A stretch of 64,000 nucleotides of DNA from the NCBI RefSeq assembly GCF_900112585.1, contig NZ_FOLY01000001.1:1-64000 (forward strand), written 5' to 3'. Source of the DNA: Kushneria avicenniae. Its GTDB lineage: Bacteria; Pseudomonadota; Gammaproteobacteria; Pseudomonadales; Halomonadaceae. Made by a program: the position numbers and the translations under genes. The notes under the pieces were generated by a model. That model was not told the origin of the DNA and did not search any database. It saw only the letters and a program-made list of their open reading frames with translations. Below, one piece after another: positions 37,729-57,463 of the stretch; position 1 is the first letter of the stretch; each line of letters starts with the position of its first letter.

Positions 37729-39171
37729 TCAGGCGAATAGATCGATACCACCGTTGAGCGAGCGTCCGATCGGTGAGCTGATCGAGATGATGTCGCTGTC
37801 AGCATCGCCATTGATGCCCGGGAGCGTGCCTGAGGGGTCATGACCGGCGAGTGCGCCGGGAGTGCGCTCCTGCTGCTGCTGCTGGAACCCCCCCTGCTGG
37901 AAGCTGCCCTGATCGCTGACCGAAGTCTGCCCGAGTTCGATACCGCTGGCGCTGAAGGCATCACGCAGCTGAGGCAGCGCAGCTTCGATGGCGGCCCGGA
38001 CCTGCGCGTGGTGTGAAGCGATATGCAGCTGTGCGCTCTGTTCGCCCATTTTCAGCGAAATGGACAGCGGCCCCAGTTCGAGCGGGTTCATGTTCAAGCG
38101 CGCTTCACCGCCACCGCGCATGCTGAGATTGATGACCTGCCGCTCGAAAGCCGAGCTCCACTGATCGCTGTCCATGGCGGGCAGGGTCGCAGTGGCAACG
38201 GCCTGGGCGGTGCCCGGTGCCATCGGGCTGGTGCCTGTCTGGCCTGTCAGGGCCGACAGTGTATTCAGCGGGCTATCGTTGACGGTGGGCGTCGTCGTGG
38301 GCCGGGTGTCGAAAACCGTCTCGGCGCCTGAGCCCATCATTTGCGAGAGTGGCCCTTCGCGCTGTGAGAGAATCTCGCCGAACAGGCGGTCACCTCTGAC
38401 AGCTTCCTGACGGCCACCTTTCAGTGTCTGTGAGGCATTATCAAGCACTGTTGCATCACGGCCTCGCAGGCCCTGTTCGAGCATGGCGCCGCGAGCGGGC
38501 TGAGCACCCTCACGCCCTGCGGGCGCTTTCTGAGTCGGCGAGCCCTGCATTAAAAAGCCGGTATCCACCAGGGCATACAGGGGATTGGCATCGTCTTTCG
38601 ACTCGCTGTCCGCCAGACGTTTGCCCTTGTCACCAGCAGGCTCGGTCCGACCATCGACACGGGAAGCGACGGACCTGTCCATGCCTGACAGCTTGCTGTC
38701 GGCACGCTCGATGCCCCGCTTTTCAAGCGACTGGTGGCCATCTGCCAGCGAGGCAAGTCCGGCCGCCGCCTTCGTTGCAGCACGATCGCTGCTGCGTGTG
38801 AGAGAAGATCCGTCACGGGGTTCGCGGCCCTCCAGACGATTGCCCTGAAGCTGCTCGAGTGCGCTGGACAGTGTTTGCCGCGCATGGCCGGGCAGCAGAG
38901 GCTGTCGAGCATCTGCGGCTGTGGCACCGCTGCTGCCCGTTGGCAGGCTGGAGCGCTGGTCCTTGTCGCCGGCATCATTGCTTCGTGCCTGCTGGCGGGA
39001 TACCGAAGATGGACGAGTGTCGGCGTCGGCTGGCGAAGCTGCCGTATCGCTCTGGCGGCGTGCTCGGGTATCGCTCAAGAGCGCGCCAAAACCGTTGTCT
39101 TCCTCACTACCCCTGGAAGGAGCGCCGGGGGTGCCCTGAGCGCTGATCTGAACATTGACTGGCGTCAGCAT
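37729..39171 (-). CDS. fliK: Flagellar hook-length control protein FliK
   Basis: A 480-residue secreted ruler. The N-terminal two thirds are low-complexity (Gln/Ser/Arg/Ala-rich, without predicted globular parts), as expected for a ruler. The C-terminal flg_hook domain is clear at about 350-440 (LSMRGGGEARLNMNPLELGP, SISLKMGEQSAQLHIASHHA, VRAAIEAALPQLRDAFSASG), which contacts FlhB. It ends with a Gln-rich stretch (QQGGFQQQQQE). Last gene of fliFGHIJK. Confidence 0.95.
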   Translation of the reverse strand: MLTPVNVQISAQGTPGAPSRGSEEDNGFGALLSDTRARRQSDTAASPADADTRPSSVSRQQARSNDAGDKDQRSSLPTGSSGATAADARQPLLPGHARQTLSSALEQLQGNRLEGREPRDGSSLTRSSDRAATKAAAGLASLADGHQSLEKRGIERADSKLSGMDRSVASRVDGRTEPAGDKGKRLADSESKDDANPLYALVDTGFLMQGSPTQKAPAGREGAQPARGAMLEQGLRGRDATVLDNASQTLKGGRQEAVRGDRLFGEILSQREGPLSQMMGSGAETVFDTRPTTTPTVNDSPLNTLSALTGQTGTSPMAPGTAQAVATATLPAMDSDQWSSAFERQVINLSMRGGGEARLNMNPLELGPLSISLKMGEQSAQLHIASHHAQVRAAIEAALPQLRDAFSASGIELGQTSVSDQGSFQQGGFQQQQQERTPGALAGHDPSGTLPGINGDADSDIISISSPIGRSLNGGIDLFA

Positions 39172-44836: not shown

Positions 44837-45160
44837 ATGTCAGTGGCAGCAGCGGGCCTTCAGGCTCTTGTTCAGCAGATGCAGGGTGTAGCGCAGCAGG
44901 CAGGCGGTCAGCACAACGCTGCGCAGCAAACAGGTGGTGTCAGTTTTGCTGGGGAACTCAAAGGGGCGATCGATCGAATCGATGGCATGAAGCAGGTCGC
45001 TGAAGCCAAGGCTGTCGCATTTTCGCGCGGTGACAGCAATGTTGCATTGAACGATGTCATGGTCGACATGCAAAAAGCCAGCGTGGCCACCGAAATGGGC
45101 ATACAGGTGCGTAACCGTGTACTCAGTGCCTATCGTGAAATCATGAGCATGCAGGTCTAG
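44837..45160 (+). CDS. fliE: Flagellar basal-body adaptor FliE
   Basis: A 107-residue protein connecting the MS ring to the rod. The second half (FAGELKGAIDRIDGMKQVAE, LNDVMVDMQKASVATEMGIQ, VRNRVLSAYREIMSMQV) is strongly conserved. A GGAG site precedes the ATG. It is transcribed alone, divergent from fliF, and followed by a terminator, as in enteric bacteria. Confidence 0.96.
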   Translation: MSVAAAGLQALVQQMQGVAQQAGGQHNAAQQTGGVSFAGELKGAIDRIDGMKQVAEAKAVAFSRGDSNVALNDVMVDMQKASVATEMGIQVRNRVLSAYREIMSMQV

Positions 45161-45247: not shown

Positions 45248-45783
45248 CGCGTTCAGGGCACCTTTGCCATGACTTGCCAGCCTCACGGGTCGTGGCTTGC
45301 AACAGGTAGTCTTGCTGGTGGCGGTCGTAACGAATTCTCCTTGCAGGGATTTCCGAAGACATTACGTACTGTTGACCAAACTGTGCCGAATCGCTTTTAT
45401 ATAAAAATTTTCTGATGTGAAAAATGATAAAAAACATGGCTTGAAGAGCAGAAATCAGGGCTTTCTTGAAATCATCGGCACAGCAGAGCAGATATCATTT
45501 TCGCTACAATATTGCGGCATATTGAATCGTTTTGGTGCTGTAAGGTGCCAATTTTCCGAAAGACAGGGTGTTGTATTTTAATTTGATGCTCACCTGAAAG
45601 CTTTAAGCTCCCCCGGCTAATGCGAGATACCCTGTCATGGCAAGTCTTAACAGAGCCTGACGAGATAAGTGAAAGCTGGAGGTTATGCTCGTTACAGCAC
45701 ACTTTCTTTTGGTTACTCGTTTTACCTTTTGCGCAGTCAGGGTTACTTAATGAAATATTCCAATGACCTCGCAGGGGAAGGCA
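45248..45783. other. Intergenic region at the left border of the accessory island
   Basis: About 540 A/T-rich bases without a convincing gene. Near 45707-45731 is CTTTTGGTTACTCGTTTTAC, related by sequence to the A/T-rich motifs before flgB and fliE. It presumably contains the promoter of the TupA-like gene. No sigma-28-like site was found here. Confidence 0.5.
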
Positions 45784-46794
45784 ATGGCGGAATTACACGT
45801 GTTTCCAACCGCAAGCCAGCACGCCAAAGCAGAGATGCAGGGTTACAAGACAGATAACAAACAGCTTCTTCCTCAAAAGCGTCAGAACCTGCTACGAATG
45901 ATGCGTCGAAGCGTCACGCGCTGGATACCGGATCGCCTTTATATTGCTCACCGCTTCCAGAAGCATTTTGGTTTCAGGCCCAATCTGGTCAATCCGGAGA
46001 CCTTCAACGAGAAAATATGCTATCGGCGTCTGCATCCAGAGCCCATCTTCTCACCGCTCAGTGACAAGCTGCTGGTGCGTGATTACGTGCGTCAGAAGAT
46101 TGGCAGCGAGACTCTGTTGCCGCTGTACCCGGTCGCTCAGTCCTTGAGCCAGGATGATTACGACCGGCTTCCCAACAGTTTTGTACTGAAAGCCAATCAT
46201 GGTTCCGGCTACAACCTGGTGGTGCACAACAAGGCTGATTACAGCCATGAGACGATGCGTCGCCTCAGCGATCACTGGCTGGCCAGCAATTTTTACCGTG
46301 ACAGTCGCGAGCTGCACTATCACAGCATTACGCCCCGACTGATGTGTGAAAAGCTGCTGCTTGATGAAAACGGCAAGATTCCCAAGGACTACAAGTTCTA
46401 TTGCTTCCGCGCAGAGGGGCAAGAACCCAGGGTCTTTATCGAAGTGACGCACGATCGTTTCACTGATTTCCACGTCGATTACTACGATCAGGACTGGAAT
46501 CTCGTGGAAGTCGTCAACGAGCGTTTCAATACCAACTGCCCGATCGAAAAGCCGGCCCAGCTGGATCGCGCCATGGAAATGGCCCTCAAGCTGTCAGAAG
46601 GGTTCGGATTTGCCCGCGTTGATTTTTATCTGATGCGCGATGCGATCTATTTCGGTGAGATCACCTTTACCCCGACAGGCGGCATGAAAAATTTCCGCTC
46701 GTCTGCACATGATCGTGCGTGGGGAGAGTTGTTTGATCACCGTCCGATGACGAAAGAATTCGGTTATGAAGACATGGAAGGCAATCGGTACTGA
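45784..46794 (+). CDS. TupA-like ATP-grasp protein
   Basis: A 336-residue protein of the TupA-like ATP-grasp family, found in polysaccharide and teichuronopeptide gene clusters. Recognisable parts are RFQKHFGFRPNLVNPETFNE with KICYRR (family N-terminus), DKLLVRDYVRQKIG, the nucleotide-binding strand FVLKANHGSGYNLVV, KDYKFYCFRAEGQEPRVFIE, and the terminal metal-binding segment GFARVDFYLMRDAIYFGEIT with FTPTGGM. Substrates are unknown; such proteins are thought to ligate amino or carboxylic groups to sugars or peptides. ATG at 45784 has an AGGGGAAGG site; ATG at 45763 is an alternative. It is alone on the plus strand, convergent with the cyclase gene. A role in decorating flagellin or a surface glycan is inference from location. 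Confidence 0.8.
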   Translation: MAELHVFPTASQHAKAEMQGYKTDNKQLLPQKRQNLLRMMRRSVTRWIPDRLYIAHRFQKHFGFRPNLVNPETFNEKICYRRLHPEPIFSPLSDKLLVRDYVRQKIGSETLLPLYPVAQSLSQDDYDRLPNSFVLKANHGSGYNLVVHNKADYSHETMRRLSDHWLASNFYRDSRELHYHSITPRLMCEKLLLDENGKIPKDYKFYCFRAEGQEPRVFIEVTHDRFTDFHVDYYDQDWNLVEVVNERFNTNCPIEKPAQLDRAMEMALKLSEGFGFARVDFYLMRDAIYFGEITFTPTGGMKNFRSSAHDRAWGELFDHRPMTKEFGYEDMEGNRY

Positions 46795-46835
46795 GCCATT
46801 GACAGCGAGCCGGCCTGCATCGCGTTGAATGCACC

Positions 46836-48011
46836 TTACAGGCCTGCTCTGCGTTCATGACAGACCCGATTACGTCCCTCGTGCTTGGCGCAATAAAGTG
46901 CCCTGTCGGCCCGTTGGATGGTGTCATCGATGGATTCACCTGCTGAATCCATTTCAGCAATACCGATGCTGATGGTCATGGAAAGGCGCTCACCGCAGAC
47001 CTGAAAAGCATGGCTTTCGGTCATTTCTCTTAATCGCTCGGCAAATACCCCGGCTTCAGCGAGGTCGGTGTCTGCCAGCACCATCAAAAACTCTTCGCCA
47101 CCCCAGCGCACCGCCATATCATTCTTTCGCAAAATGGACGTCAAGCAGCCTGCAAAGGTTGTCAGCACGGCATCACCAGCTTCGTGCCCAAGGGTATCGT
47201 TAACCGTTTTGAAATGGTCGAGATCGCCAATCACGATGCTGGTCGTCCTGCGTTTATTGCCGGATCGACCGGATTCGTGGAGCAGGCGCTGAAAGCCTCG
47301 GCGATTAAAAAGGCCGGTCAGAGGATCGGTGTCAGCCTGGTGTCTCAGTTTCAGGTTGGCGCGCTCGCCACTCATGGCGATATAGCCGACGTAAACCAGA
47401 ATGCTGGTAACCTGATCAAACAGCATGGAGAGATAGGCAGTATCCGAAGAGACCGGCATCGTATTGAATTGCAGCAAAAGGGCAGCAATTAAAAAGCTGA
47501 TGCAATAACCTGCAAAAGCCAGCGCCACGATCAGCTGGGACCAGAGTCTTTCACCTCCGGACCTGATGATTTGGAACATTGCCAGTGCGGCGGCAAATGC
47601 CGCACATATAAAAAATACTGATACCTGTAACGATGTTGGTATATTTAATCGTGATCCTGGCAGGCAGGGGAGAGATGGCAGCATGATCAATACAATCATT
47701 GCTGTCCAGGAAATATCACGCCTGTAGAAGCGACGTAATCCACTCCAGGACAGCACAAGACTTGCCATGTATAGCGTGAAGATCTGTATGCTCGTTTGCG
47801 TGGATAGCTGCTTGTCAACGGGAGAATCAAACAGAATCAGTGATCCCAGAAGCGAGGCGAGAATCGCGCCGATCCAGTGCCACTGATAGCCTGCCTCACG
47901 CTGGCGGAGAGCGAGCACCAGAAAAATGGCAAGATAGGCCCCACGACTGACTGCACTCGAGAAATAGAGCGTCCCCGGATCAAGCATGAATTGAATGCCT
48001 CCTGTCGACAT
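46836..48011 (-). CDS. Membrane-bound GGDEF diguanylate cyclase
   Basis: A 391-residue protein with six to seven N-terminal hydrophobic segments (for example GAYLAIFLVLAL, WIGAILASLLGSLILF, SVFFICAAFAAALAMFQII) and a C-terminal GGDEF domain (about 230-385). The active-site signature is GGEEF in VRWGGEEFLMVLADTD, and DPLTGLFNRRGFQRLL and GDLDHFKTVNDTLGHEAGD are intact, so synthesis of cyclic di-GMP is expected. An RxxD inhibitory site is not evident before GGEEF. ATG at 48011 has a GGTGGA site; ATG at 48029 has none. Its place beside flagellar genes suggests motility-to-sessile control. Confidence 0.9.
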   Translation of the reverse strand: MSTGGIQFMLDPGTLYFSSAVSRGAYLAIFLVLALRQREAGYQWHWIGAILASLLGSLILFDSPVDKQLSTQTSIQIFTLYMASLVLSWSGLRRFYRRDISWTAMIVLIMLPSLPCLPGSRLNIPTSLQVSVFFICAAFAAALAMFQIIRSGGERLWSQLIVALAFAGYCISFLIAALLLQFNTMPVSSDTAYLSMLFDQVTSILVYVGYIAMSGERANLKLRHQADTDPLTGLFNRRGFQRLLHESGRSGNKRRTTSIVIGDLDHFKTVNDTLGHEAGDAVLTTFAGCLTSILRKNDMAVRWGGEEFLMVLADTDLAEAGVFAERLREMTESHAFQVCGERLSMTISIGIAEMDSAGESIDDTIQRADRALYCAKHEGRNRVCHERRAGL

Positions 48012-48036
48012 AACGGGTCCACCCGGCATATTCGTT

Positions 48037-48063
48037 ATATCGGCTCAACGCAGACTGCCTGAA
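48037..48063 (-). promoter_or_regulatory. Weak sigma-28-like site before the diguanylate cyclase
   Basis: Minus strand: TTCA (48063-48060), 15 bases, GCCGATAT (48044-48037). The -10 has one mismatch, the -35 two. Only the position just upstream of the cyclase start supports it. Confidence 0.35.
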
Positions 48064-48388
48064 TGACGACATGGCTGTCCGGGTAAAATAATATTTAAAA
48101 TATTGAACTTTCTGTTGTCAGATTTTATTTTCAGGCTAATGAAAGGCCGATCTTGCAAATATTGTTGGAGCGCAAAATGATGGCTCGCCAATTAAAAGCT
48201 GTCGGGTTGAACGTTGGCGCTGCGCTAATGCTGTTGTTATAAAGATTCGATAACGGCTGCAAGCAGATATTTTTAATAATATTTAACCCTTGATCGGCAA
48301 TCCCGTTCGGCAATGGCAAACTCGATGAACAGGATCGCTGCCGGTCAGCGTATTGTTCATGTTGTCATGCCACCAGAGCGGTCCGCTT
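48064..48388. other. A/T-rich intergenic region
   Basis: About 325 bases between the cyclase and the chimeric flagellin, both on the minus strand. It is rich in A/T tracts (for example ATTTTTAATAATATTTAA near 48268-48285). No gene and no clear terminator hairpin for the flagellin gene were seen. Confidence 0.5.
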
Positions 48389-49852
48389 TTACTGGCGTAG
48401 CAGCGCCATGACGCTATCCAGCCTCTGATTGGCCTGGGCCAGTATTGCCGTACCTGCCTGCTGAGTGATCTGTGCGCGACTCATGTTGGAGGCTTCCACA
48501 GCGTAATCAGCATCCATGATGCGTGACACGGCACCAGCCGTGATGGCCTGTTTCTCCAGGACCGTATTGGCAGCGCTTTCCAGCCGATTTTGAAGGGCGC
48601 CGTAGTGCGTTCTGTAGTTACTGACCCGTTCAAGTGCCTGGTCCAGGTCGCCCAGTGCTTCCCTTGCCTTTTCGATCGGGTCCAGCCCTGTCTCCCCGAG
48701 TCCCAGAGTGGTGCTGTCCGAAGGAGTGGCTGTGATGGTTATCTTTTGCAGGTTACTGCCAAAATCAGCGTTCAGAACAATATCTGTATCCGTGCTGACC
48801 GGTCCGGTCGGCGGCGGTGGGGGATTGTACTCAATAGGCATACGATCCCATGTTGCGGCCGCGTTGAACCTACCTTCTCCAACGACAAAAATCAGCAGAT
48901 CCTCGGTGACATGATCAACGGTCAGCACCTCGAGATGGTTCCTGTCGTCCACACGTCCATCGTTGAAACCGGTATCGGGCTGGTCGGCGGTCTCGGGATG
49001 TTGACGGTCACCATCGCCCGACCAGCGAATCTGCATGCCGTTGTAAGCGACTTCGACAGGCAACCTCGTTGTGTTGTATTGCCCTGTACCATCCGCTAGA
49101 ACGCTGCCGTTGTATTGAGCGCCAGACTGGAAGCCTTCGGAGGTTTTCATGAGCAGCCGGTTGGCATCCGACTCACTGCCAATATCCTGATATTGCCAGA
49201 CATGGTCAGGGCTCTCTCCTGAAATGGGTGTGCCGATCAGATGGCGTCCGTCCGTTGTAAACAGCTGAATATCATCATCGAACGCCAGAGAATCCATCTC
49301 CAGTCGGAAGTTCTGCGTGCCGGCAGGGAGATAGGCCACGCTTTTAACGCCCGAGGCATAAGGCCTGAACTGTGGTTCAAGAACCTCGCTGGCAGGCAGC
49401 GTGTCGCCTCGCTTGACCGGTTGTGGCTGAGGCGGTGGCGGAGCCAGTGGCGTCTTGCCAAAAACAGTAGTGTCGCTGGCGATGCGGTCGATTTCCGCCC
49501 GCAGCTGTACGAATTCCCCCTGCAGGGCGGCCCGATCCGAGTCTGCCAGGGTGCCAGTTGAGGCTTGCACGGCCAGCTGTCGCGAGCGCTGCAGCAGGGC
49601 ATTGATGTATTCAAGGCTGCCATCAGCCGTCTGGATCAGGCTGATGCCCTCATTAATGCCACGATTGATCTGCGCATCTGCTCTCAAATTGGCCTGAAAT
49701 CGATTCGCGATCGCTTGGCCGGCAGCATCATCACGCGCAGAATTGATCCGCAGACCACTGGACAGCCGCTCGATCGCCTGATTAAGCGAACGCTGGGTTC
49801 TGTCGAGTTGGCTGTTGGCCATGCGCGATGATATGGATGAAGCCATAACCAT
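48389..49852 (-). CDS. Chimeric flagellin with large inserted central domain
   Basis: A 487-residue flagellin. Residues 1-136 are a normal D0/D1 half (LNQAIERLSSGLRINSARDD, AGQAIANRF, then GISLIQTADGSLEYINALLQ), and residues 393-487 a normal C-terminal half ending ILAQANQRLDSVMALLRQ. Instead of the usual middle there is a segment of about 195 residues between two proline hinges (PLAPPPPQPQP near 135-145; PPPPPTGP at 344-351). It is rich in beta-type and Asp residues (FRLEMDSLAFDDDIQLFTTD; AYNGMQIRWSGDGDR; VTEDLLIFVVGEGRF). No HExxH protease motif is present. It differs strongly from fliC at 56573 and is likely a minor or specialised filament protein. A sigma-28-type site lies upstream. Function of the insert is unknown; binding or adhesion is a guess. 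Confidence 0.88.
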   Translation of the reverse strand: MVMASSISSRMANSQLDRTQRSLNQAIERLSSGLRINSARDDAAGQAIANRFQANLRADAQINRGINEGISLIQTADGSLEYINALLQRSRQLAVQASTGTLADSDRAALQGEFVQLRAEIDRIASDTTVFGKTPLAPPPPQPQPVKRGDTLPASEVLEPQFRPYASGVKSVAYLPAGTQNFRLEMDSLAFDDDIQLFTTDGRHLIGTPISGESPDHVWQYQDIGSESDANRLLMKTSEGFQSGAQYNGSVLADGTGQYNTTRLPVEVAYNGMQIRWSGDGDRQHPETADQPDTGFNDGRVDDRNHLEVLTVDHVTEDLLIFVVGEGRFNAAATWDRMPIEYNPPPPPTGPVSTDTDIVLNADFGSNLQKITITATPSDSTTLGLGETGLDPIEKAREALGDLDQALERVSNYRTHYGALQNRLESAANTVLEKQAITAGAVSRIMDADYAVEASNMSRAQITQQAGTAILAQANQRLDSVMALLRQ

Positions 49853-49888
49853 GCCGTTCCCGAAAAGCCGGTTGATCGAATAAGCGTT

Positions 49889-49915
49889 TTAACGGCCAAA
49901 GTCTGATTAGGTTTA
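49889..49915 (-). promoter_or_regulatory. Sigma-28-type promoter of the chimeric flagellin
   Basis: Minus strand: TAAA (49915-49912), 15 bases, GCCGTTAA (49896-49889), 36 bases before the start codon. One mismatch from the -10 consensus. The same -10 variant occurs before two other island genes. Confidence 0.75.
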
Positions 49916-50032
49916 GCCGGAAAACGAGCGTGGCATGGATCGTTTGCCATTCAGGCAAGGCACGCGAAGGGAGCGGAGTGACAGGTCCGGTCGAGCATCG
50001 TTTGCGCCTACGGTACTAAAGCTCCGGGCGAA

Positions 50033-51250
50033 TTACTTTTGATGGGCACCTTCGCGCTTCTCGGTAACGGCATGCAGTTTTGTAATATCGTCGCGATGAA
50101 AGCTGATGCATTGATCAGACGTTTTGCGGATCTGAGCCATATTGGACCACGTGAGATCGAGATCGGCAGGGCAGAGCAGCCTGATGTTACCAAAATTGAA
50201 CAACAGCCGTCCCTCGATATTCAAGCCCTCGCTGTCATTGTCGTACGCTCCCCATAACTTGTGTGTCAGGCTTCCCCGATAGTCGGCCGAGACATGGTAA
50301 TGGCGGACCGTATTGTCGGTCAGGCCGATCATCTGACCGATCCGAAAGGCCACCATATGGGGCAGTCGATCGGTACAGGCGATCAGTACGGCGTTGGATA
50401 TCAGCAGGCCCGCCACCAGCGCCGCCCCGGTTTTTATAAAGTCTTTTCCGGCATTCGGTGTCCCCTGTTCAGCGGCGCCGGCATTGCCGGACTGTCTGTC
50501 TCTGGCGATCAGGAAAAAGATACCAGGCAGCAGCGTGGACGCCATACAGACAGCGCAGTACACAACTACCAGCAGATAGCTGGTCCATGTCTCTTCCCAG
50601 GGATTGAGCTTGAGCACAAAGGTGGCGACGTAAAAACTGAAAAACGAGCTCAGGGACAGTGGGATAAATACCTGAGCGTGTACCACAAAGGCTCTCAATA
50701 TCGGTGACTGAATATTGTTGCTGCCAGCGCCGCGACTGGCAGAGGCGCAGACCTCCTTGCGCAGGGTGACCATATACAGTGCCAACAGGGAAAAAAACAG
50801 GCCCCCAAAGATCCAGCCGCTGGAAAGGGTGTTCTGCTGAAGGGTAGAAAATACAACTGCGCCCGAGAACAGGGCAATAAATATCAGTATCCCCAGCAGG
50901 GCCAGTACCGATGCCCTGAGATGGAAATTTTTAGAGGTGTCAGCGTCGGTCAGACTATTGCTACAGCTTAAAACAAGAAAGTAGGAGGGAACGGCCAGAC
51001 AAAAGAAACCTAAAAAGCTTGCGACTGCGAATACCGCGAGGATATAGATAATAAACGTATTGCTTTCGAGCGCGGCGATAAATAGATCGGGCCTGCCGAT
51101 GATATGCGTATAGCCAAGAACATACCCCAGGCCTATGGTGATCGCCGACAAGGCATGCAGGCGTTTTGACAGCAAAAAACTCTTGATTTTCAGGCTCAAC
51201 GACAAAATGAAACCCCTGTCCTGCTTTGATTGCCGCATGAGTATGTACAT
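50033..51250 (-). CDS. Seven-helix membrane protein with C-terminal soluble domain, unknown function
   Basis: About 405 residues. Seven hydrophobic segments can be read (for example HALSAITIGLGYVLGY, FIIYILAVFAVASFLGFFCL, ASVLALLGILIFIALFSGAV, WIFGGLFFSLLALYMVTL, FIKTGAALVAGLLISNAVLI). A soluble tail of about 110 residues follows, with two cysteines (IRLLCPADLDLTW; TSDQCISFHRDD) that could pair in the periplasm. I do not recognise a family. The start is uncertain: ATGs at 51250 and 51238 have no clear ribosome-binding site. It lies 26 bases after the DUF697-like gene and is probably cotranscribed with it and the zinc-knuckle gene. Confidence 0.7.
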   Translation of the reverse strand: MYILMRQSKQDRGFILSLSLKIKSFLLSKRLHALSAITIGLGYVLGYTHIIGRPDLFIAALESNTFIIYILAVFAVASFLGFFCLAVPSYFLVLSCSNSLTDADTSKNFHLRASVLALLGILIFIALFSGAVVFSTLQQNTLSSGWIFGGLFFSLLALYMVTLRKEVCASASRGAGSNNIQSPILRAFVVHAQVFIPLSLSSFFSFYVATFVLKLNPWEETWTSYLLVVVYCAVCMASTLLPGIFFLIARDRQSGNAGAAEQGTPNAGKDFIKTGAALVAGLLISNAVLIACTDRLPHMVAFRIGQMIGLTDNTVRHYHVSADYRGSLTHKLWGAYDNDSEGLNIEGRLLFNFGNIRLLCPADLDLTWSNMAQIRKTSDQCISFHRDDITKLHAVTEKREGAHQK

Positions 51251-51276
51251 ATCATACCCATGCGGTTGCCCTGGCA

Positions 51277-51762
51277 CTAATCGGTGGCGGTTTCCTGCTG
51301 TTTTTTCAACAGGTCGCGGCATAGCGCATGGCATTCATCGACATGAGAATTGCCAAGGTATTTCATTGCCCCAAAACTGATGCCCGCTGCCGCCGCCTGC
51401 CCGATGAGTGGCACATACTTGACGAGACTTTTGGTCGCAACGCGCACGCCGATTTTCTTGAGCGCCACGGTAATGAGTTCTTTGGTAATGGTTTTACCCA
51501 CCAGTTGACTGCCCAGATTCGAAATGGCCAGCATGACCAGCCTTTTGGTGTCTTCATCGAGTTGCGCGATCTGTTCCGGCGTCAGGCCGAACTTACGGTT
51601 GATGGCAGGAATCATCTCCATGAGGATGGCAACATCCGAGCCAACATCAACCCCGGGCAGGGGAATAATGGCCGCGCCCCCGGAAATACTGGCTCTTTTG
51701 GTCACCAGTGTCTTGCACTCGTTACGTACGTTATCCAGTTCTTCTTCTGACATAAACGCCAT
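51277..51762 (-). CDS. Small helical DUF697/EcsC-like protein
   Basis: A 161-residue protein with a Gly/Ala-rich amphipathic core (SGGAAIIPLPGVDVGSDVAI, LMEMIPAINRKFGLTPEQIA, VPLIGQAAAAGISFGAMKYL). This pattern resembles the DUF697/EcsC-type helical domain that accompanies some membrane-associated GTPases and stress proteins; no GTPase motif is present here. The family call is by pattern only. ATG at 51762 has an AAGGA site nine bases upstream. It follows the zinc-knuckle gene by 27 bases and precedes the membrane protein by 26, which suggests one operon. Confidence 0.65.
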   Translation of the reverse strand: MAFMSEEELDNVRNECKTLVTKRASISGGAAIIPLPGVDVGSDVAILMEMIPAINRKFGLTPEQIAQLDEDTKRLVMLAISNLGSQLVGKTITKELITVALKKIGVRVATKSLVKYVPLIGQAAAAGISFGAMKYLGNSHVDECHALCRDLLKKQQETATD

Positions 51763-51789
51763 TCTTGATTTTCCTTGCAAGCAGGGTTT

Positions 51790-51963
51790 CTATTTTTGCG
51801 GGCACGTCCGGCGGTCATGCTGATAGCTGTGGCAGAGGCTGCATCTTCTGACATCAGGGCAGGTCTGAATATTATGACCGGTACGCCCGCATCCCGAGCA
51901 CCGTTGCGGCACCGGGCACGTGGCAGCGTTGTGTTGTCCTGAGCCGCAAACGGAACATGCCAT
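51790..51963 (-). CDS. Tiny protein of three CCHC zinc knuckles
   Basis: A 57-residue protein (79 if started at 52029) consisting almost entirely of three repeats with the exact pattern C-x2-C-x4-H-x4-C: CSVCGSGQHNAATC, CSGCGRTGHNIQTC and CSLCHSYQHDRRTC. This is the retroviral-type zinc knuckle, which binds one zinc ion each and usually contacts single-stranded nucleic acid or protein. Repeats are separated by short PxxxR linkers (PVPQR, PDVRR) and the tail is PQK. Zinc knuckles are rare in bacteria. Start at 51963 has a weak GGAAA site; 51978 and 52029 are alternatives with none. A sigma-28-like site lies upstream. Biological role unknown. Confidence 0.75.
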   Translation of the reverse strand: MACSVCGSGQHNAATCPVPQRCSGCGRTGHNIQTCPDVRRCSLCHSYQHDRRTCPQK

Positions 51964-52058
51964 TGTCGATATTTCCATCAAATTAATGAAACGGAGGCTT
52001 GAATAACCCCCTGGAGATTTCGCCATCATGCCAAGGGCTGCGCGACCATGAAGTTATC

Positions 52059-52085
52059 TTAACGGCTGATATCCAATAAATTTCA
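52059..52085 (-). promoter_or_regulatory. Sigma-28-type site before the zinc-knuckle gene
   Basis: Minus strand: TGAA (52085-52082), 15 bases, GCCGTTAA (52066-52059). Same -10 box as the sites before the chimeric flagellin and the 153-residue gene; one mismatch in the -35. Confidence 0.55.
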
Positions 52086-52107
52086 GGAAATAAGATATTA
52101 ATATATT

Positions 52108-52569
52108 CTACTGGATGGATTTGAACCTGTACTGTTTGGCATACAGCATCACTTCACAGTCACTGGCGGCGGCTTCCTCAAGTCCACCGTTTTTGAAATA
52201 TTGAAAATTGAAGCTTTCCAGTGTGTCGAATATCGAGTCCAGGTTGTCGATGCAAGAAGTGTTACCTCCATACTGCTGCATCAACAAATATAGGTCGTCA
52301 ACCTGACGGCTGAAACACAGCTCATAATCGCCAACGGGCTCGAGTTCGATCACGTAAGAGCCAAAATCTCGCGCCTGCATGATACTGCCGGTACAGAAAT
52401 AAGCTCTGCCGCGAAAATTGCGACCGAACTTTTGATGAAACCAGAGCCCCATGATGAGATGGAGCGGATAGTGAGTATTGCGTGGCCGCCTGTCCACGTG
52501 CAGGAATTCATTAATCAGAATGTCCGAATCGGCCGGTAACCGTTCGGGAGAGTGTGCGCGATAGAGCAT
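52108..52569 (-). CDS. Unknown protein of about 153 residues
   Basis: Starts MLYRAHSPERLPADSDILIN and contains GRAYFCTGSIMQARDFGSYV followed by IELEPVGDYELCFSRQVDDL. It ends in a mostly helical, acidic stretch (LDSIFDTLESFNFQYFKNGG). I do not recognise a family with confidence. The order 'LYRA ... (F)CTGS..A..(F)G ... V.EL' loosely recalls ADP-ribosyltransferase-fold proteins, but no catalytic Glu motif could be assigned. No signal peptide or membrane segment. ATG at 52569 has a GAGG site six bases upstream and is preferred to 52581. A sigma-28-type site about 110 bases upstream shares sequence with the flagellin promoter. Confidence 0.65.
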   Translation of the reverse strand: MLYRAHSPERLPADSDILINEFLHVDRRPRNTHYPLHLIMGLWFHQKFGRNFRGRAYFCTGSIMQARDFGSYVIELEPVGDYELCFSRQVDDLYLLMQQYGGNTSCIDNLDSIFDTLESFNFQYFKNGGLEEAAASDCEVMLYAKQYRFKSIQ

Positions 52570-52914
52570 GGAAAACCTCATGTCATGAAAGTTGTTCCGT
52601 CCGGCTGGCGGTTAAATGGCAAAGGCCTCCATGAAGACCTGCCGGATACTTCCAAGCGATTAACAACGCCGGATAGCCGTGTTAACGGCCAAAGTCTGCT
52701 GAGGTTGAGACCTTGTGACCAATGTTGCATGGTACGTTTGCCGAGTGGCGAAAAAGGGGAGGGTGTAGAGTGCCCGGTGCAGCAGAAAAGATAAGCGCAG
52801 AGAACGCCGTCAATACCGGTGTCATCGATTTTGGGTTGCACGATTCCGGCGATATGATCACCGAAATCATGCAATTGTTGTATTTAACGCATATACAATA
52901 TATAGAAAGCGACT
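52570..52914. other. Intergenic region with duplicated promoter segment
   Basis: About 345 bases between the 153-residue gene and the stop of the large ATP-grasp gene. It contains the sigma-28-type site at 52682-52708 and further bases that match the region upstream of the chimeric flagellin (shared AACGGCCAAAGTCTG, then GCATGG and CGTTTGCC blocks). No gene was recognised. Confidence 0.6.
52682..52708 (-). promoter_or_regulatory. Sigma-28-type promoter before the 153-residue gene
   Basis: Minus strand: TCAA (52708-52705), 15 bases, GCCGTTAA (52689-52682). Differs from the chimeric-flagellin site in only four of 27 positions. Confidence 0.65.
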
Positions 52915-55900
52915 CTATAGTCTTTCAATAAAAGGCGTTGAGTCGAATTTGCTGAGCAGGGTCTTTATGGCATTGGGCTGACCCTCTAAATGTATGTCAA
53001 GGATGTCGGGTTCAACCATCTGATAATGGCCTTCAAGTACATGCAGATTGATTTGTTCATTCAGCCAATCAGTCATGTCGAATTCTGGATGTTGTCCACG
53101 ATCCATGATTTTTAGCTGCTGGACTATCGGTTGCGTCACATTATGTTCGTAATCAGGCCACCAGACCGATAGCAGACCCGAGATGACGTCGCGGGGCCGA
53201 TCGATCCCGGAATAGAAAACAGACAAATCGGGCTGTAGATCCACGAACTTCAGCGCCCATTCATTCGCCTCGATAGGTCTTTCCAAGCTGGCCAGCTTCA
53301 GTGTCAATAGCGCGTGGCCCGGCGAGTAAATGGCCTGCATGGCACGCGCTGCGACATCGGCAATATCCTCATGCAGTGACTCGGTGACATCTTCCCACCC
53401 TCCTGTTTTCATGGCATGTGCTGCCAGCAGGTAGCTGCCTGCCATAAGAACTTTTATATCCATACCCGCGTTGGGCTCGTCGGAAGGTATATCGAACTTT
53501 TGCAGACGTTCCTGAAGCCACTCGGTATGTTTAAGAATCTCCACGCTTTCGAGGGCTGTATGGGTACTGACACCTTCGATCCATCCCAGTTGAGCCGGCG
53601 CGCCAATCAATAGGGCATCGGAATGCGCTTCAAGTCGAACACAAAACAGGTTGTGAGCGCAGGCGATCATATGGAGATAGCTGGTTGAAAAATCAGAAGC
53701 TGTTTTGGATATGGGCTGACAGCGCCGGGCAGGTAAAAGCGCACCTTTCTGCGGCGTGACCGGCAGGGCAGATGTTTCAAAGGCATGCGTTAGCAGTCGC
53801 TTGGCAAGGGCCGTTCCCAAACCTGTGGATGGAAAGTGGAAAGCGGAAATGTTGGGGGTCGATGAGTTAATCTCGGTAAACCAGACTCCGTCAGAGTGCT
53901 CTAGCTCCTCTACGAACATGTCTACCCCACAGGCTCGTGAAGGAAGCAGATGTGCTGCGCGAGTTGCCATCTCGAGGACGCTTTCATCTACTTTCAAAGG
54001 AAGGTTGTCAGAGCCCATGGCGACCATCCTACCTTCGCCCAGTTCCACCCATTCTCCTTTTGCAGGTATATCGTCTAAACAGCGACCAGCTTTCTCAAGA
54101 ACCGGCGTTTGCTGGATGAGTCCCTTGATAGTGACCGGATTCTTTGCACGGTAAGTGTTTTTTGCCTCGATCAGTTCGGCGACGGTATTTGCGCCATTGC
54201 CTATGATGAAAGCTGGAGCACGTAGTCGTGCTTCAACGAACTCTCCTTCATGAAAATAGAGGCGTATCTCTTCTCCTTGGATCATGTCCTCGATAATAAC
54301 GGTACGCCCTACCTTTTTGGCTTTTTGCCAGGCATTCCGGAATTGTGCAGGGGTGGTGACATCAATCGTGACGCCACGGGAAGCAAACCCGTCGGAAGGT
54401 TTAACCACCTGCGGGCGTTTGCATTGCGCAAAATAGCCATAGCCCGACTGAAAGTCGATAAAGGCTTCCCCTGCCGGGGTGGGTAGCCCATTGCGACGCA
54501 GCAGTTCCTTGACCAATAGCTTGTCTCGCTCCATCAGGTGTACGTCGATGGGAACTCTGGGCGCATTGATATGAAACACTACCTGCTGGCGGCCCTTAGT
54601 GAATTCAAGCATCCGGGAGGGGCGACGTATCAGTTCAATGCCCCTAGAGGTTGCCTCGTGGGTCAGTATTTCTTCATCGATATAGTGCTTGAGATCAAAA
54701 AAGGGCGCGGCACTGAAGTCCTTGGGTTCTTCCAGATGATGGGTTAACCAAGCTTGATTCTGTGCTCGAGAATCGTTGGCTCTTATTTTCTCCTTGCAGA
54801 TCACCTCAGCAGGTATCTTTAGCGACTCGCCATGCCCCGCAGGAATAATAAATTCCCACTCTGGAACATCGGCCTTGGTCGCGAAGAGGTGATGCGCGGC
54901 TCTGGTAATGATGTGCCAGGCGGCTTGCACATGATCGCCTTCGGGTAATCCATCCACCCAGTTTCGCATGGCGGGGTTTATCTCGAATATGACGAGCCTG
55001 CCTGAATCTTCTGGTGATGTGGCTGGTGCAAAGTCCACACCTGCATAGTCCAGGCCGGTTTTTTGCATGATCGCTTCCAGTCCCTCCCACTGGGCCCGGC
55101 CTAGGTGTTCGGCTGGATCCTGGCAATAGTCGCGTTCCTGCTCTATCAGCCAGGGGTGGGCTTCCATGACCGGATCGGCATTGCTTTTATGAACGTTGAA
55201 ACTATTTGCTGTAAATAGGTGGACAGGGTAGAGACTCCCGCCAACTATAAAGGCGCGATACTTGGGATATAAATCAATTCCCGGCGCTTTCTCGCTTTGA
55301 TAGTCCACCGCATGATATTGAATCAGATAGAGCGTTTGCGGCTTTTTGGCAAGCTCTCGGTCAATATCGGAAAAATCATGGCGCGCCAAGTCGTGTACCT
55401 TGTGCATGAACCTTCCGCCCTGAAAGCCGGCCAGCCTGACAATCAGCGGCAGTTTTAAACCATGTTCAGCTATGAGGGGTTCAATGATGTCCCGGCAGTT
55501 GCCCTGAATGTTATCGATCCTAACACTCAGCGGTTGTATGATGCCGCTTTCATCCTTGAATCTGGCATAGTTCTGCTCTCTAGATGCGGCCAGCACAGCC
55601 GAGGGTGGATTCACAACGGGGCGTTGCAGGCGCTTACATATCCATGCCGCTTTTTCCAGTGCTGCCTCGCAACGCTCGGCATCGGTAATATTGTTGTAAA
55701 TCAGGTCTATTTTGGATAGCCGGCGTAAAACCTCGGGGTGCTTTTGAATCTCATCCACATAAATATAAGAAAGTGCAATATTTTGGTTGTCCAGCACAGA
55801 GGGAAGATTGTTATGTCCCTCCGTCATTATAGGAGTAAATTCTTTACGGTCGATGCTCCAGGTCGTCTCGCGAGCGGTCTTGAGAACCAGAACGTTTAGT

Positions 55901-56412
55901 CTTTTGGTCTCGCTATCCGTAGCCAGGTTTACGGGGTTGGCACGAATTGCGCGTTTTAGCCAAAACTCTGAATGGTCTGAGTAACCATTGGTGCTATACA
56001 GCGCCGCCAAATGCCAGATAGCGTTCTTGTCGTCGGGCTTCATGGAGAGAAAGCGGTGCAGTGCGCTAATGGCGCCCCGATCCTGCTGTTTCTGGGTATA
56101 GAGCATGGCCAGCAGCCAGTACAGACTGGGGCGATCAGGAAGTTGAAAGGAGGCTGTCGTCAACGAATTGATGGCGTAATCGATTTGTCCTTTTTTCGCC
56201 TGTCTTCTGCCTTGGAAATAAAGTGCTTCTGCGTTGGTGGGGTCGAGCGCCAACAGAAGCTCAAGTGTGGGGTCGGCGGTTTCATCCATCCCCTTGTCAA
56301 ACAAACGTTTGATATCGACAAGCAGCTCGTTGGCATGCAGTGTAATATCTGAAAGCTCCGAGTTCGGTAACTGTCTGGACGATGCTTTTTTTTTGGTGGA
56401 TTTGCGCGACAT
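52915..56412 (-). CDS. TPR protein with two successive ATP-grasp domains
   Basis: About 1165 residues, unusually long. After a basic start, residues 20-170 form TPR-like repeats (LLLALDPTNAEALYFQGRRQ; YWLLAMLYTQKQQDRGAISA). A first ATP-grasp unit covers about 185-530, ending in LDYAGVDFAP and the metal-binding LVIFEINPAMRN. A second, about 580-900, resembles the cyanophycin synthetase ATP-grasp: VVKPSDGFASRGVTIDV, EEIRLYFHEGEFVEARLRAP, GNGANTVAELIEAKNTYR, and ACGVDMFVEE with WFTEINSSTPN. Both keep the acidic/Asn metal ligands, so both may be active. The last 260 residues are helical and unassigned. ATP-grasp enzymes join carboxylates to amines via acyl phosphates; peptide ligation is likely, substrate unknown. 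ATG at 56412 is preferred over a TTG at 56448. It lies directly downstream of fliC, same strand. Confidence 0.85.
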   Translation of the reverse strand: MSRKSTKKKASSRQLPNSELSDITLHANELLVDIKRLFDKGMDETADPTLELLLALDPTNAEALYFQGRRQAKKGQIDYAINSLTTASFQLPDRPSLYWLLAMLYTQKQQDRGAISALHRFLSMKPDDKNAIWHLAALYSTNGYSDHSEFWLKRAIRANPVNLATDSETKRLNVLVLKTARETTWSIDRKEFTPIMTEGHNNLPSVLDNQNIALSYIYVDEIQKHPEVLRRLSKIDLIYNNITDAERCEAALEKAAWICKRLQRPVVNPPSAVLAASREQNYARFKDESGIIQPLSVRIDNIQGNCRDIIEPLIAEHGLKLPLIVRLAGFQGGRFMHKVHDLARHDFSDIDRELAKKPQTLYLIQYHAVDYQSEKAPGIDLYPKYRAFIVGGSLYPVHLFTANSFNVHKSNADPVMEAHPWLIEQERDYCQDPAEHLGRAQWEGLEAIMQKTGLDYAGVDFAPATSPEDSGRLVIFEINPAMRNWVDGLPEGDHVQAAWHIITRAAHHLFATKADVPEWEFIIPAGHGESLKIPAEVICKEKIRANDSRAQNQAWLTHHLEEPKDFSAAPFFDLKHYIDEEILTHEATSRGIELIRRPSRMLEFTKGRQQVVFHINAPRVPIDVHLMERDKLLVKELLRRNGLPTPAGEAFIDFQSGYGYFAQCKRPQVVKPSDGFASRGVTIDVTTPAQFRNAWQKAKKVGRTVIIEDMIQGEEIRLYFHEGEFVEARLRAPAFIIGNGANTVAELIEAKNTYRAKNPVTIKGLIQQTPVLEKAGRCLDDIPAKGEWVELGEGRMVAMGSDNLPLKVDESVLEMATRAAHLLPSRACGVDMFVEELEHSDGVWFTEINSSTPNISAFHFPSTGLGTALAKRLLTHAFETSALPVTPQKGALLPARRCQPISKTASDFSTSYLHMIACAHNLFCVRLEAHSDALLIGAPAQLGWIEGVSTHTALESVEILKHTEWLQERLQKFDIPSDEPNAGMDIKVLMAGSYLLAAHAMKTGGWEDVTESLHEDIADVAARAMQAIYSPGHALLTLKLASLERPIEANEWALKFVDLQPDLSVFYSGIDRPRDVISGLLSVWWPDYEHNVTQPIVQQLKIMDRGQHPEFDMTDWLNEQINLHVLEGHYQMVEPDILDIHLEGQPNAIKTLLSKFDSTPFIERL

Positions 56413-56512
56413 AAAAAGGCTCTTTGACGTAGTGAGGGTAGAGGTCAAAGCGCTTTTCAGGCACTGACCCTTCGTCTCACGTTACTATAGCCAGCACAAA
56501 ACCATTCAAAAA

Positions 56513-56538
56513 AAAGGGAGAGCTTTTGCTCTCCCTTT
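56513..56538 (-). terminator. Rho-independent terminator after fliC
   Basis: On the minus strand AAAGGGAGAGC (56538-56528), AAAA loop, GCTCTCCCTTT (56523-56513), followed by further T residues. Separates fliC from the ATP-grasp gene. Confidence 0.92.
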
Positions 56539-56572
56539 GGCCTTTAACAACAGGCTTGGATGGCGTGGATCA

Positions 56573-57463
56573 TTAACGCAGCAGCGACATGACGCCCTGA
56601 GTGGTCTGGTTGGCCTGCGCCAGTACCGAGGTACCGGCCTGCTGCAGGATCTGCGCCTTGGACATGTTCGACACTTCGGTTGCGTAGTCGGCGTCCTTGA
56701 TCTGCGACTGAGCGGCAGACAGGTTGGTCGAGGTGGTCGAGTTACCTTCAACGACCGACTGCAGACGGTTCTGCTGTGCGCCCAGAGTGCTGCGCGCACT
56801 GTCTACGGTTTGCAGCGCATCATCAATTCGCTGAAGAAGCCCATCATTACCGTCGCCTTTCGAAAAATCGACGCCATCAGCCGAGACCGAGAACCCATCC
56901 ATGCCCAGAGAAGTCAGGTCCATCGCGGTCAAACCAAGTTCGATGGTTTGCTTATCGTTGGCGCCAACCTGAATGGAAACATTCCTTGTGCCTGCAACTG
57001 CAGCGTCTGCTCCGTTACGAGCTGTAGCATCACTAAACTTATCCCCACCCAGCAGTTTCTGACCGTTAAATTCAGTTTGATCAGACAGTCGAGTGATTTC
57101 ATCCAGGCGCTGACCGATTTCATCCTGAATGGATGCCAGATCATCTGCACCGTTGGTGCCGTTGGCGGCCTGAACAGTCAGTTCACGAATGCGCTGCAGG
57201 TTATCAGTCACCTGACCCATGGCACCTTCGGCGGTCTGAGCCATGGAAATACCGTCGTTGGCGTTGCGGTTGGCCTGGTTCAGGCCAGCAATCTGAGCGC
57301 CCATGCGGTTGGAGATGGCCAGCCCTGCGGCATCGTCCTTGGCACTGTTGATGCGGGAGCCTGAAGACAGACGCTCGATGGCGGTGTTCAGGGACTGCTG
57401 AGACTTGTTCAGGTTGTTCTGAGCGTTGAGCGACAGAGCGTTTGTATTGATGACCATTGCCAT
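56573..57463 (-). CDS. fliC: Flagellin FliC (major filament protein)
   Basis: A 296-residue flagellin, short type. N-terminal D0/D1: INTNALSLNAQNNLNKSQQS, LNTAIERLSSGSRINSAKDD and GLAISNRM; C-terminal DADYATEVSNMSKAQILQQA and VLAQANQTTQGVMSLLR. The variable middle is brief (about residues 145-200). AGGA precedes the ATG. It is the likely main filament subunit; a strong terminator follows. Upstream lies a leader with two small hairpins (GCGGCA/TGCCGC near 57520-57533, ACTC/GAGT near 57501-57510) and a duplicated sigma-28-type segment. Confidence 0.96.
   Translation of the reverse strand: MAMVINTNALSLNAQNNLNKSQQSLNTAIERLSSGSRINSAKDDAAGLAISNRMGAQIAGLNQANRNANDGISMAQTAEGAMGQVTDNLQRIRELTVQAANGTNGADDLASIQDEIGQRLDEITRLSDQTEFNGQKLLGGDKFSDATARNGADAAVAGTRNVSIQVGANDKQTIELGLTAMDLTSLGMDGFSVSADGVDFSKGDGNDGLLQRIDDALQTVDSARSTLGAQQNRLQSVVEGNSTTSTNLSAAQSQIKDADYATEVSNMSKAQILQQAGTSVLAQANQTTQGVMSLLR

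Follow-up and report, generated by a model that had tools for sequence, protein, structure and literature searches.

The first 64,000 nucleotides of contig NZ_FOLY01000001.1 of Kushneria avicenniae (GCF_900112585.1; this whole stretch is called the window below) carry a flagellar locus in which the gene directly downstream of the flagellin gene fliC encodes a large protein with an N-terminal tetratricopeptide repeat (TPR) region and two ATP-grasp domains. On balance we favour a reading, built by analogy, in which the TPR region binds flagellin and the ATP-grasp part forms an amide on flagellin or on its decoration. An initial annotation, made from the sequence alone, had placed this protein in an island of eight genes between fliE and fliC that might act together on the filament. 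A carboxylate-amine ligase coupled to flagellin remains plausible, because relatives of the protein adjoin flagellin genes in several genera and because a TPR-glycosyltransferase lies beside fliC in congeneric genomes; the single eight-gene system was not supported. The elements that carry the argument are as follows.

56573..57463, minus strand: fliC, the proposed substrate (PF00669 3.1e-47, PF00700 3e-25).
56507..56540, minus strand: hairpin resembling a terminator, with a T run, in the interval from fliC to the TPR/ATP-grasp gene (-22.6 kcal/mol).
52915..56412, minus strand: TPR/ATP-grasp gene, encoding the TPR region, ATP-grasp domains 1 and 2 and a degenerate tail (~1165 aa from the ATG at 56412).
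54823..55908, minus strand: predicted ATP-grasp domain 1, of the flagellin-linked family (588 bits with profile A5, own row included; AlphaFold and Foldseek).
53770..54636, minus strand: ATP-grasp domain 2, CphA/GshAB-like (TIGR02068 2.1e-36; alignment A4).
52918..53763, minus strand: degenerate tail, a possible ATP-grasp remnant with an acylphosphatase-like end (weak matches).

The reading frame of the TPR/ATP-grasp protein opens at a TTG at 56448, from which residues are numbered here; the ATG at 56412 is most likely the true start, because all six rows of an alignment share M13 of the frame as numbered from the TTG. Pfam returned TPR repeats and a Dala_Dala_lig_C match for the protein. In the N-terminal region (about residues 13-175) TPR_19 scored 25 bits at a cut-off of 25 and the other TPR models stayed below their cut-offs; the repeats were also seen in a profile match to solved TPR proteins and as helices in the structural model. 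Domain 1 was matched by no Pfam model at E <= 0.5. An AlphaFold model of residues 17-560, calculated from a 15-row alignment, had a mean predicted local distance difference test score (pLDDT) of 89.2 and a predicted template modelling score (pTM) of 0.83, and in this confident model domain 1 is predicted to have the ATP-grasp fold. Foldseek gave 330 matches in the PDB at E <= 0.001. Among the best 50 of these 330, D-Ala-D-Ala ligases (Ddl), RimK and LysX/ArgX lead, with PsnB and MdnC lower; the matches listed have target-normalised TM values mostly of 0.4-0.6 and identities of 10-16%. When solved structures were searched by sequence with a profile of the N-terminal half, TPR proteins predominated among the best 60 of 233 matches and the ATP-grasp part did not stand out. 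In an alignment of 12 rows, 54 columns of domain 1 show no variation; K-Y-R-A, G-x-D-F and F-E-x-N are among them, and we take these motifs to be nucleotide- and metal-site residues. The rows come from gammaproteobacteria and one betaproteobacterium, Simplicispira.

Domain 2 scored 165 bits against a profile of CphA/GshAB-like relatives that was built without the window sequence, and it keeps the conserved residues of that set. ATP-grasp_4 (PF13535) reached 20.1 bits (cut-off 27). The last 280 residues look degenerate and weakly match the end of a tandem ATP-grasp/acylphosphatase protein, so that a further ATP-grasp remnant followed by an acylphosphatase-like tail is a possible but weak interpretation. 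These are hints alone; a third ATP-grasp domain with an acylphosphatase was considered for the tail and not accepted as established. The count of three ATP-grasp domains in two proteins given in the initial annotation is nevertheless correct, since two reside in this protein and one in the TupA-like protein of the island.

Linkage to flagellin was assessed in 18 distinct loci of the close family (the window, L034-L039, L124 and L128-L137), repeats having been dropped before counting (L123 = L034, L125 = L036, L126 = L038, L127 = L037, L171 = L129). Twelve comparison loci (L113-L117, L119-L121, L138-L141), not randomly drawn, had been fetched for relatives of domain 2 and of the 157-aa, DUF697-like and TupA-like proteins of the island. 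L039 was counted among the 18 despite its truncated ATP-grasp (101 bits); L177, fetched for a domain-1 match that open reading frame (ORF) calling did not reproduce, belongs to neither set, and L093-L112, fetched around the long flagellin and TupA-like genes, lie outside both counts. Seven of the 18 close-family loci have a flagellin gene at most 400 bp away; with L134, where the distance is 2.7 kb, the number having one within the fetched stretch rises to 8. The corresponding figure for the comparison loci is 0 of 12, and three of 19 more distant loci have a flagellin gene within the fetched stretch. The flanks are unequal, for most of the 18 between 3.4 and 10 kb on each side, and a flagellin gene further out could therefore have escaped view. 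In the five other loci where a full-length protein is encoded beside flagellin (L034-L038), its gene follows a flagellin gene in the direction of transcription and shares its strand, which is also the arrangement in the window. In the comparison of gene neighbourhoods that the initial annotation had proposed, the TPR/ATP-grasp relatives adjoin flagellin in several genera and the block as a whole is not conserved. In a tree of the domain (L039 left out, 7 of the 19 distant loci included) the flagellin label needs at least six changes, which suggests that the link was made or lost several times.

Different enzymes occupy the place beside fliC in related genomes. The family sample comprised 151 genomes, ten of them, including that of the window, from the genus. 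A protein with a TPR region and a GT41 domain adjoins fliC in two congeneric genomes, G072 and G103, and in G020 and G122; in a third congener, G090, it lies one unrelated frame away from fliC and also has a sulfotransferase domain. The domains were assigned by Pfam in G072, G090 and G020 and by similarity in G103 and G122. Near fliC, G137 encodes a TPR-LicD protein, and G141 has a GT4 protein close to its flagellin genes; two further Kushneria genomes, G050 and G015, lack an enzyme of this kind in the interval from fliC to the long flagellin. The gene order in G072 (fliC, TPR enzyme, long flagellin, OmpW-like gene, cyclase, TupA-like gene, fliE) is that of the window, except for the enzyme itself, the OmpW-like gene and the added genes. 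Because three congeners have the TPR-GT41 protein at or near the same place, a ligase seems to have replaced a glycosyltransferase beside fliC. A separate observation in flagellin loci concerns a domain without a Pfam match that is common to TPR-ATP-grasp, TPR-GT41, GT4 and stand-alone proteins (L036:11312-13765, L098:10487-15184, L106:7047-9359, L112:9602-10561); read by eye, it looks like a degenerate FkbM methyltransferase.

The proteins that share the predicted fold of domain 1 include RimK, LysX and ArgX, several of which act on proteins or peptides, and PsnB and MdnC, whose PDB entries hold precursor peptides; they differ from the window protein in their low identity, in lacking a TPR region and in their other substrates. 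Domain 2 resembles cyanophycin synthetase and GshAB in its match to TIGR02068, and differs from cyanophycin synthetase in that its score, 125 bits, does not reach the equivalog cut-off of 850 and in that Pfam finds no Mur ligase match. According to excerpts of the published work, FlmG of Caulobacter crescentus joins a TPR part that binds flagellins to a GT-B glycosyltransferase part that acts on them (PMC7591256). The window protein likewise has an N-terminal TPR region and a presumed C-terminal modifying enzyme, linked to flagellin by gene position; its predicted catalytic part, however, is ATP-grasp with no GT-B domain. The two are likened by description, not sequence, and by this analogy the window protein may work like the FlmG type without being a member. 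SfmE (SO_3265) of Shewanella oneidensis is described, again in excerpt, as a 412-aa ATP-grasp protein (ATP-grasp_4) encoded in an operon with a NeuB-domain gene; its deletion shifts the mass of flagellin and reduces spreading on soft agar, and the cells still swim (PMC3765264). It shares with the window protein an ATP-grasp domain tied to flagellin modification. This, too, is a likeness of description, not sequence, the window protein being fused to a TPR region and its genome having no NeuB. The 343-aa TupA-like protein of the window is a clear PF14305 member and in this resembles the TupA-like Cj1438C of Campylobacter jejuni, which in the excerpted account forms an amide on glucuronic acid (PMC11800379); it differs in being a stand-alone protein in a flagellar locus. 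The type B flagellin cluster of C. difficile has an ATP-grasp gene that, in the excerpt, 'may also be involved' (PMC5207246).

Targeting by a TPR region (FlmG, with a glycosyltransferase) and ATP-grasp in flagellin modification (Shewanella) are thus known apart, and their union was found in no open-licence paper at the level of titles and abstracts. The combination of flagellin, ATP-grasp and tetratricopeptide returned nothing in that literature; flagellin with ATP-grasp led to flagellin modification only in the SfmE and C. difficile work (titles and abstract openings), flagellin aminoacylation or amidoligase to the Shewanella paper alone, and Halomonas flagellin glycosylation to nothing specific. 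Excerpts of papers on the CDC123 clade and on graspetides contained no flagellar link; the graspetide excerpt notes that TPR proteins whose role is unclear occur close to ATP-grasp genes.

Hints about the chemistry come from the relatives. Acylphosphatase tails are present by profile in 8 of the 18 close-family loci (L034, L035, L039 and L133-L137; checked by Pfam for L034 and L039) and also on tandem ATP-grasp proteins of the polysaccharide loci L115 and L116. A pyridoxal phosphate (PLP) decarboxylase is encoded next to it in 8 of the 18 loci of the close family and in 6 of the 19 more distant ones; its best model is L-2,4-diaminobutyrate decarboxylase, far under the cut-off (180 against 900 bits in L036). 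The frequency of such tails or neighbours among the relatives suggests acyl-phosphate chemistry that ends in an amide with an amine. We propose that the TPR/ATP-grasp protein encoded directly downstream of fliC would be the active unit. By analogy with the TPR of FlmG, its TPR domain is most likely the part that binds flagellin in the cytoplasm, before the flagellin is assembled. Domain 1 would activate a carboxylate as an acyl phosphate and join it to an amine, so that the amide is made before export on flagellin itself or on a small group that flagellin carries, and domain 2 may make the donor or add a second unit. The gene would occupy the fliC-side place in which related bacteria keep TPR-fused glycosyltransferases.

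A wider proposal is possible but doubtful: that a TPR-guided ATP-grasp family attaches an amino acid or amine directly to flagellin by an amide bond, the amine being supplied in some lineages by the neighbouring decarboxylase, and that members of the same family with altered tails act on further exported surface proteins, for instance adhesins. If true, direct attachment would be a modification of the filament protein distinct from glycosylation and lysine methylation. Under the reading favoured above, if right, the gene beside fliC would be an exchangeable modifier, with the same kind of targeting domain and different chemistry, and would offer a route to finding non-sugar flagellin modifications.

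Several observations weigh against a flagellin ligase. No flagellin gene was seen in 10 of the 18 close-family loci, so flagellin cannot be the family's only partner, and L039, with flagellin genes on both sides, is the locus in which the ATP-grasp is truncated. The 18 contain close pairs and trios (L037/L038, L131/L132, L133/L135/L137) and the tree does not resolve the centre of the close family, leaving six open forks; neither 18 nor six is therefore an exact count of independent events. TPR repeats are widespread, and their presence alone is no proof of flagellin binding. Domain 1 is rare: at E <= 1e-10 it matches in 15 of the 369 genomes of the class sample and in 6 of the 390 of the order sample, the window genome included, and these matches are mostly distant. 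Strong relatives of the N-terminal half occur in 6 of the other 150 genomes of the family, one being a partial match; the nine other Kushneria genomes lack this half, and two of them match domain 2 alone, weakly. The window island has no decarboxylase; the sole match in the genome is 29% identical and on another contig. Finally, no sigma-28-like site was found directly before the TPR/ATP-grasp gene, and the strong hairpin (z -4.1, segment 56495-56545) separates it from fliC. The absence from the nine congeners would be expected if the gene were cargo that had landed near fliC, a peptide maker or a modifier of some other surface protein, unrelated to flagella. Neighbours in loci without flagellin agree with this: BapA-type adhesins lie nearby in L130 and L131, DUF4214 proteins in L124, a DUF4214-related protein in L128 and SapC in L128 and L129, and Pfam matched nothing in the L132 neighbour, which is truncated at the edge of the stretch. 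L133 and L135-L137 have a decarboxylase neighbour and no flagellin within the fetched stretch; the neighbours in L133, Pfam-scanned unlike those in L135-L137, include a TgpA-like transglutaminase. Cargo would not, however, account for flagellin as the direct neighbour in several genera and in none of the comparison loci, nor for a position shared with the TPR-glycosyltransferases, and we consider it improbable.

A role on a glycan deserves more weight, although we still regard it as rather unlikely. The ATP-grasp domains would then amidate a sugar carboxylate, as Cj1438C does with glucuronic acid (PMC11800379), or help to complete a sugar borne by flagellin, as might SfmE in its NeuB-containing flagellin modification cluster (PMC3765264), and the TPR region would only recruit. 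L115 and L116 do combine tandem ATP-grasp/acylphosphatase proteins with rhamnosyltransferases, and L116 has TupA as well. The fusion to a TPR region, on the other hand, points to a protein substrate, and Pfam found no glycosyltransferase match among the island proteins scanned, which were all but the zinc-knuckle protein. The window genome has no PF03102 match at E <= 0.001 (a control matched 9 of 14), so that the usual nonulosonic-acid flagellin glycan, dependent on a NeuB-type synthase, is unlikely here and this route was rejected. That all eight genes form one filament-modification system, as initially annotated, is very improbable. They share one place, and sigma-28-like sites, one of them weak, precede three of them; yet phyletic patterns differ among the genes searched genome-wide (all but the cyclase and zinc-knuckle genes), and none of the annotated relative loci carries the eight genes together, so whole-block conservation was rejected. 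A TPR-guided ligase acting on flagellin or its decoration remains the reading that we favour, and the eight genes are, by their distribution, a mosaic and not a single conserved island. All eight are open frames in the window, between fliE and fliC as first described; those other than the TPR/ATP-grasp gene are listed here with fliE.

44837-45160, plus strand: fliE (open frame).
45763..46794, plus strand: TupA-like ATP-grasp amidoligase, 343 aa, in a genus-level block beside fliE/fliF (PF14305 1.7e-44, 152.6 bits, cut-off 25).
46836..48029, minus strand: diguanylate cyclase with an N-terminal membrane part and GGDEF (PF00990 1.7e-44; hydrophobic stretches).
48389..49852, minus strand: long ('chimeric') flagellin (PF00669/PF00700).
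50033..51334, minus strand: multi-helix membrane protein, family not assigned (open frame, hydropathy).
51277..51780, minus strand: DUF697-like protein (PF05128, 22.4 bits, cut-off 27.7, E 1.1e-4).
51790..51963, minus strand: small triple CCHC zinc-knuckle protein, 57 aa from an inner ATG, the frame running to 52029 (motifs).
52108..52581, minus strand: 157-aa protein, family not assigned (open frame).

Most of the first assignments agree with these data. The GGDEF match identifies the cyclic di-GMP synthase, three C-x2-C-x4-H-x4-C motifs are present in the zinc-knuckle protein, and the DUF697-like label is supported by PF05128, though under the model cut-off. The divergent flagellin matches flagellin families at its two ends (N domain 1.5e-30, C domain 6.7e-20), and its middle of ~270 residues (about 134-401) has no Pfam family. 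The 'seven-helix' protein has six hydrophobic stretches by hydropathy, one of them long enough for two helices; its frame overlaps the next gene and the true start may be further inside. An ORF at 52578-52874 without a family match, into which a sigma-28-like site at 52708 falls, was judged spurious.

The TupA-like gene and the adjoining cyclase gene occupy the same place in 7 of the 10 Kushneria genomes (own included), with TupA-like copies of 87-91% identity in 6 of the 9 others. Sequence comparison indicates that the pair is an older genus block, found also without the TPR/ATP-grasp gene; the window genome has four further TupA-like paralogues. TupA from this block probably forms an amide on a sugar acid of a surface glycan. 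The long flagellin has full-length relatives in 11 of the other 150 genomes of the family, including two Kushneria genomes, and fragmentary ones in two more; beyond the genus there is often no other flagellar gene within the fetched stretch. The membrane protein has no match in the 9 other Kushneria genomes and weak matches in 3 of the remaining 141. The DUF697-like protein, also without a match in those 9, otherwise occurs in 20 genomes of genus g11 and one of g4, and the 157-aa protein has weak relatives in 2 of the 150 and none in the 9. One of the two (L112) sits in a locus with fliC, an FkbM-like gene and a TPR-LicD gene. Scattered, unlinked relatives, which had been named in advance as evidence against one system, were thus found for the membrane and DUF697-like genes, mostly for the 157-aa gene and partly for the long flagellin. 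The DUF697-like, membrane, zinc-knuckle and 157-aa genes may have been added later, in part behind promoter sites of the late flagellar type. An OmpW-like protein (61 bits, model cut-off 287) is encoded between the long flagellin and the cyclase in other Kushneria genomes (for example L095:9756-10235 and L096:10142-10837) and is missing from the window.

Promoter-like sites were scored with what we take to be the sigma-28 consensus. Those in the island are:

49889..49915, minus strand: sigma-28-like promoter of the long flagellin (score 11.5).
52059..52085, minus strand: sigma-28-like promoter before the zinc-knuckle, DUF697-like and membrane protein genes (score 11.3).
52682..52708, minus strand: weaker sigma-28-like site before the 157-aa ORF (score 10.5).

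At a threshold of 11 the whole 64 kb has 10 sites (one overlapping pair included, and two within other frames); three shuffled versions gave 1, 0 and 1, and the reversed window gave 1. Elsewhere, two sites precede fliC and one each precedes fliD and the genes that, from their positions, we take to be flgM and flgK. Late-gene promoters had been noted before three island genes; those of the long flagellin and the zinc-knuckle protein stand, and that of the 157-aa protein falls under the threshold. At a threshold of 9.5 the 13.5-kb region has 18 sites against a mean of 10.0 in 20 shuffles; the site at 52708 alone is therefore not significant. The region around it (52660-52745) is 74% identical over 73 bp to the promoter region of the long flagellin (49860-49950), and because of this copy the 157-aa ORF probably took over a duplicated flagellin promoter. 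The fliC gene itself has tandem sigma-28-like promoters of near-identical sequence, 115 bp apart (57570 and 57685, minus strand; segment 57540-57690), which look like a duplicated promoter region.

The 157-aa protein matches PHROG 11975 (5e-14). No relative at E <= 1e-4 was found in 283 other genomes of the class sample, no viral-contig relative was confirmed and no solved structure matched by sequence. Its model is of low confidence (pLDDT 60), with no Foldseek match at E <= 0.001. An ADP-ribosyltransferase identity, guessed from R/S/E-like conserved positions in three sequences, was not supported.

Some minor observations concern enzymes and genes elsewhere. A protein of ~1000 aa whose N-terminal half includes a PLP decarboxylase domain pairs with TPR/ATP-grasp proteins (L036:13883-16915, L037:4426-7425 and L038:4041-7031, among others); in the distant loci the decarboxylase is mostly of ~480-530 aa (615 aa in one) and is paired with ATP-grasp proteins of ~400 aa. 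L113-L116 have clusters of one to four CphA/GshAB-like ATP-grasp proteins, those beside the rhamnosyltransferases of L115 and L116 being acylphosphatase-tailed, and in L114 parts resembling D-Ala carboxypeptidase, MurF and acylphosphatase are fused in one protein. Two FliK-type hook-length (Flg_hook) proteins are encoded in the single flagellar locus of the window, at 3280-4359 and 37729-39171.

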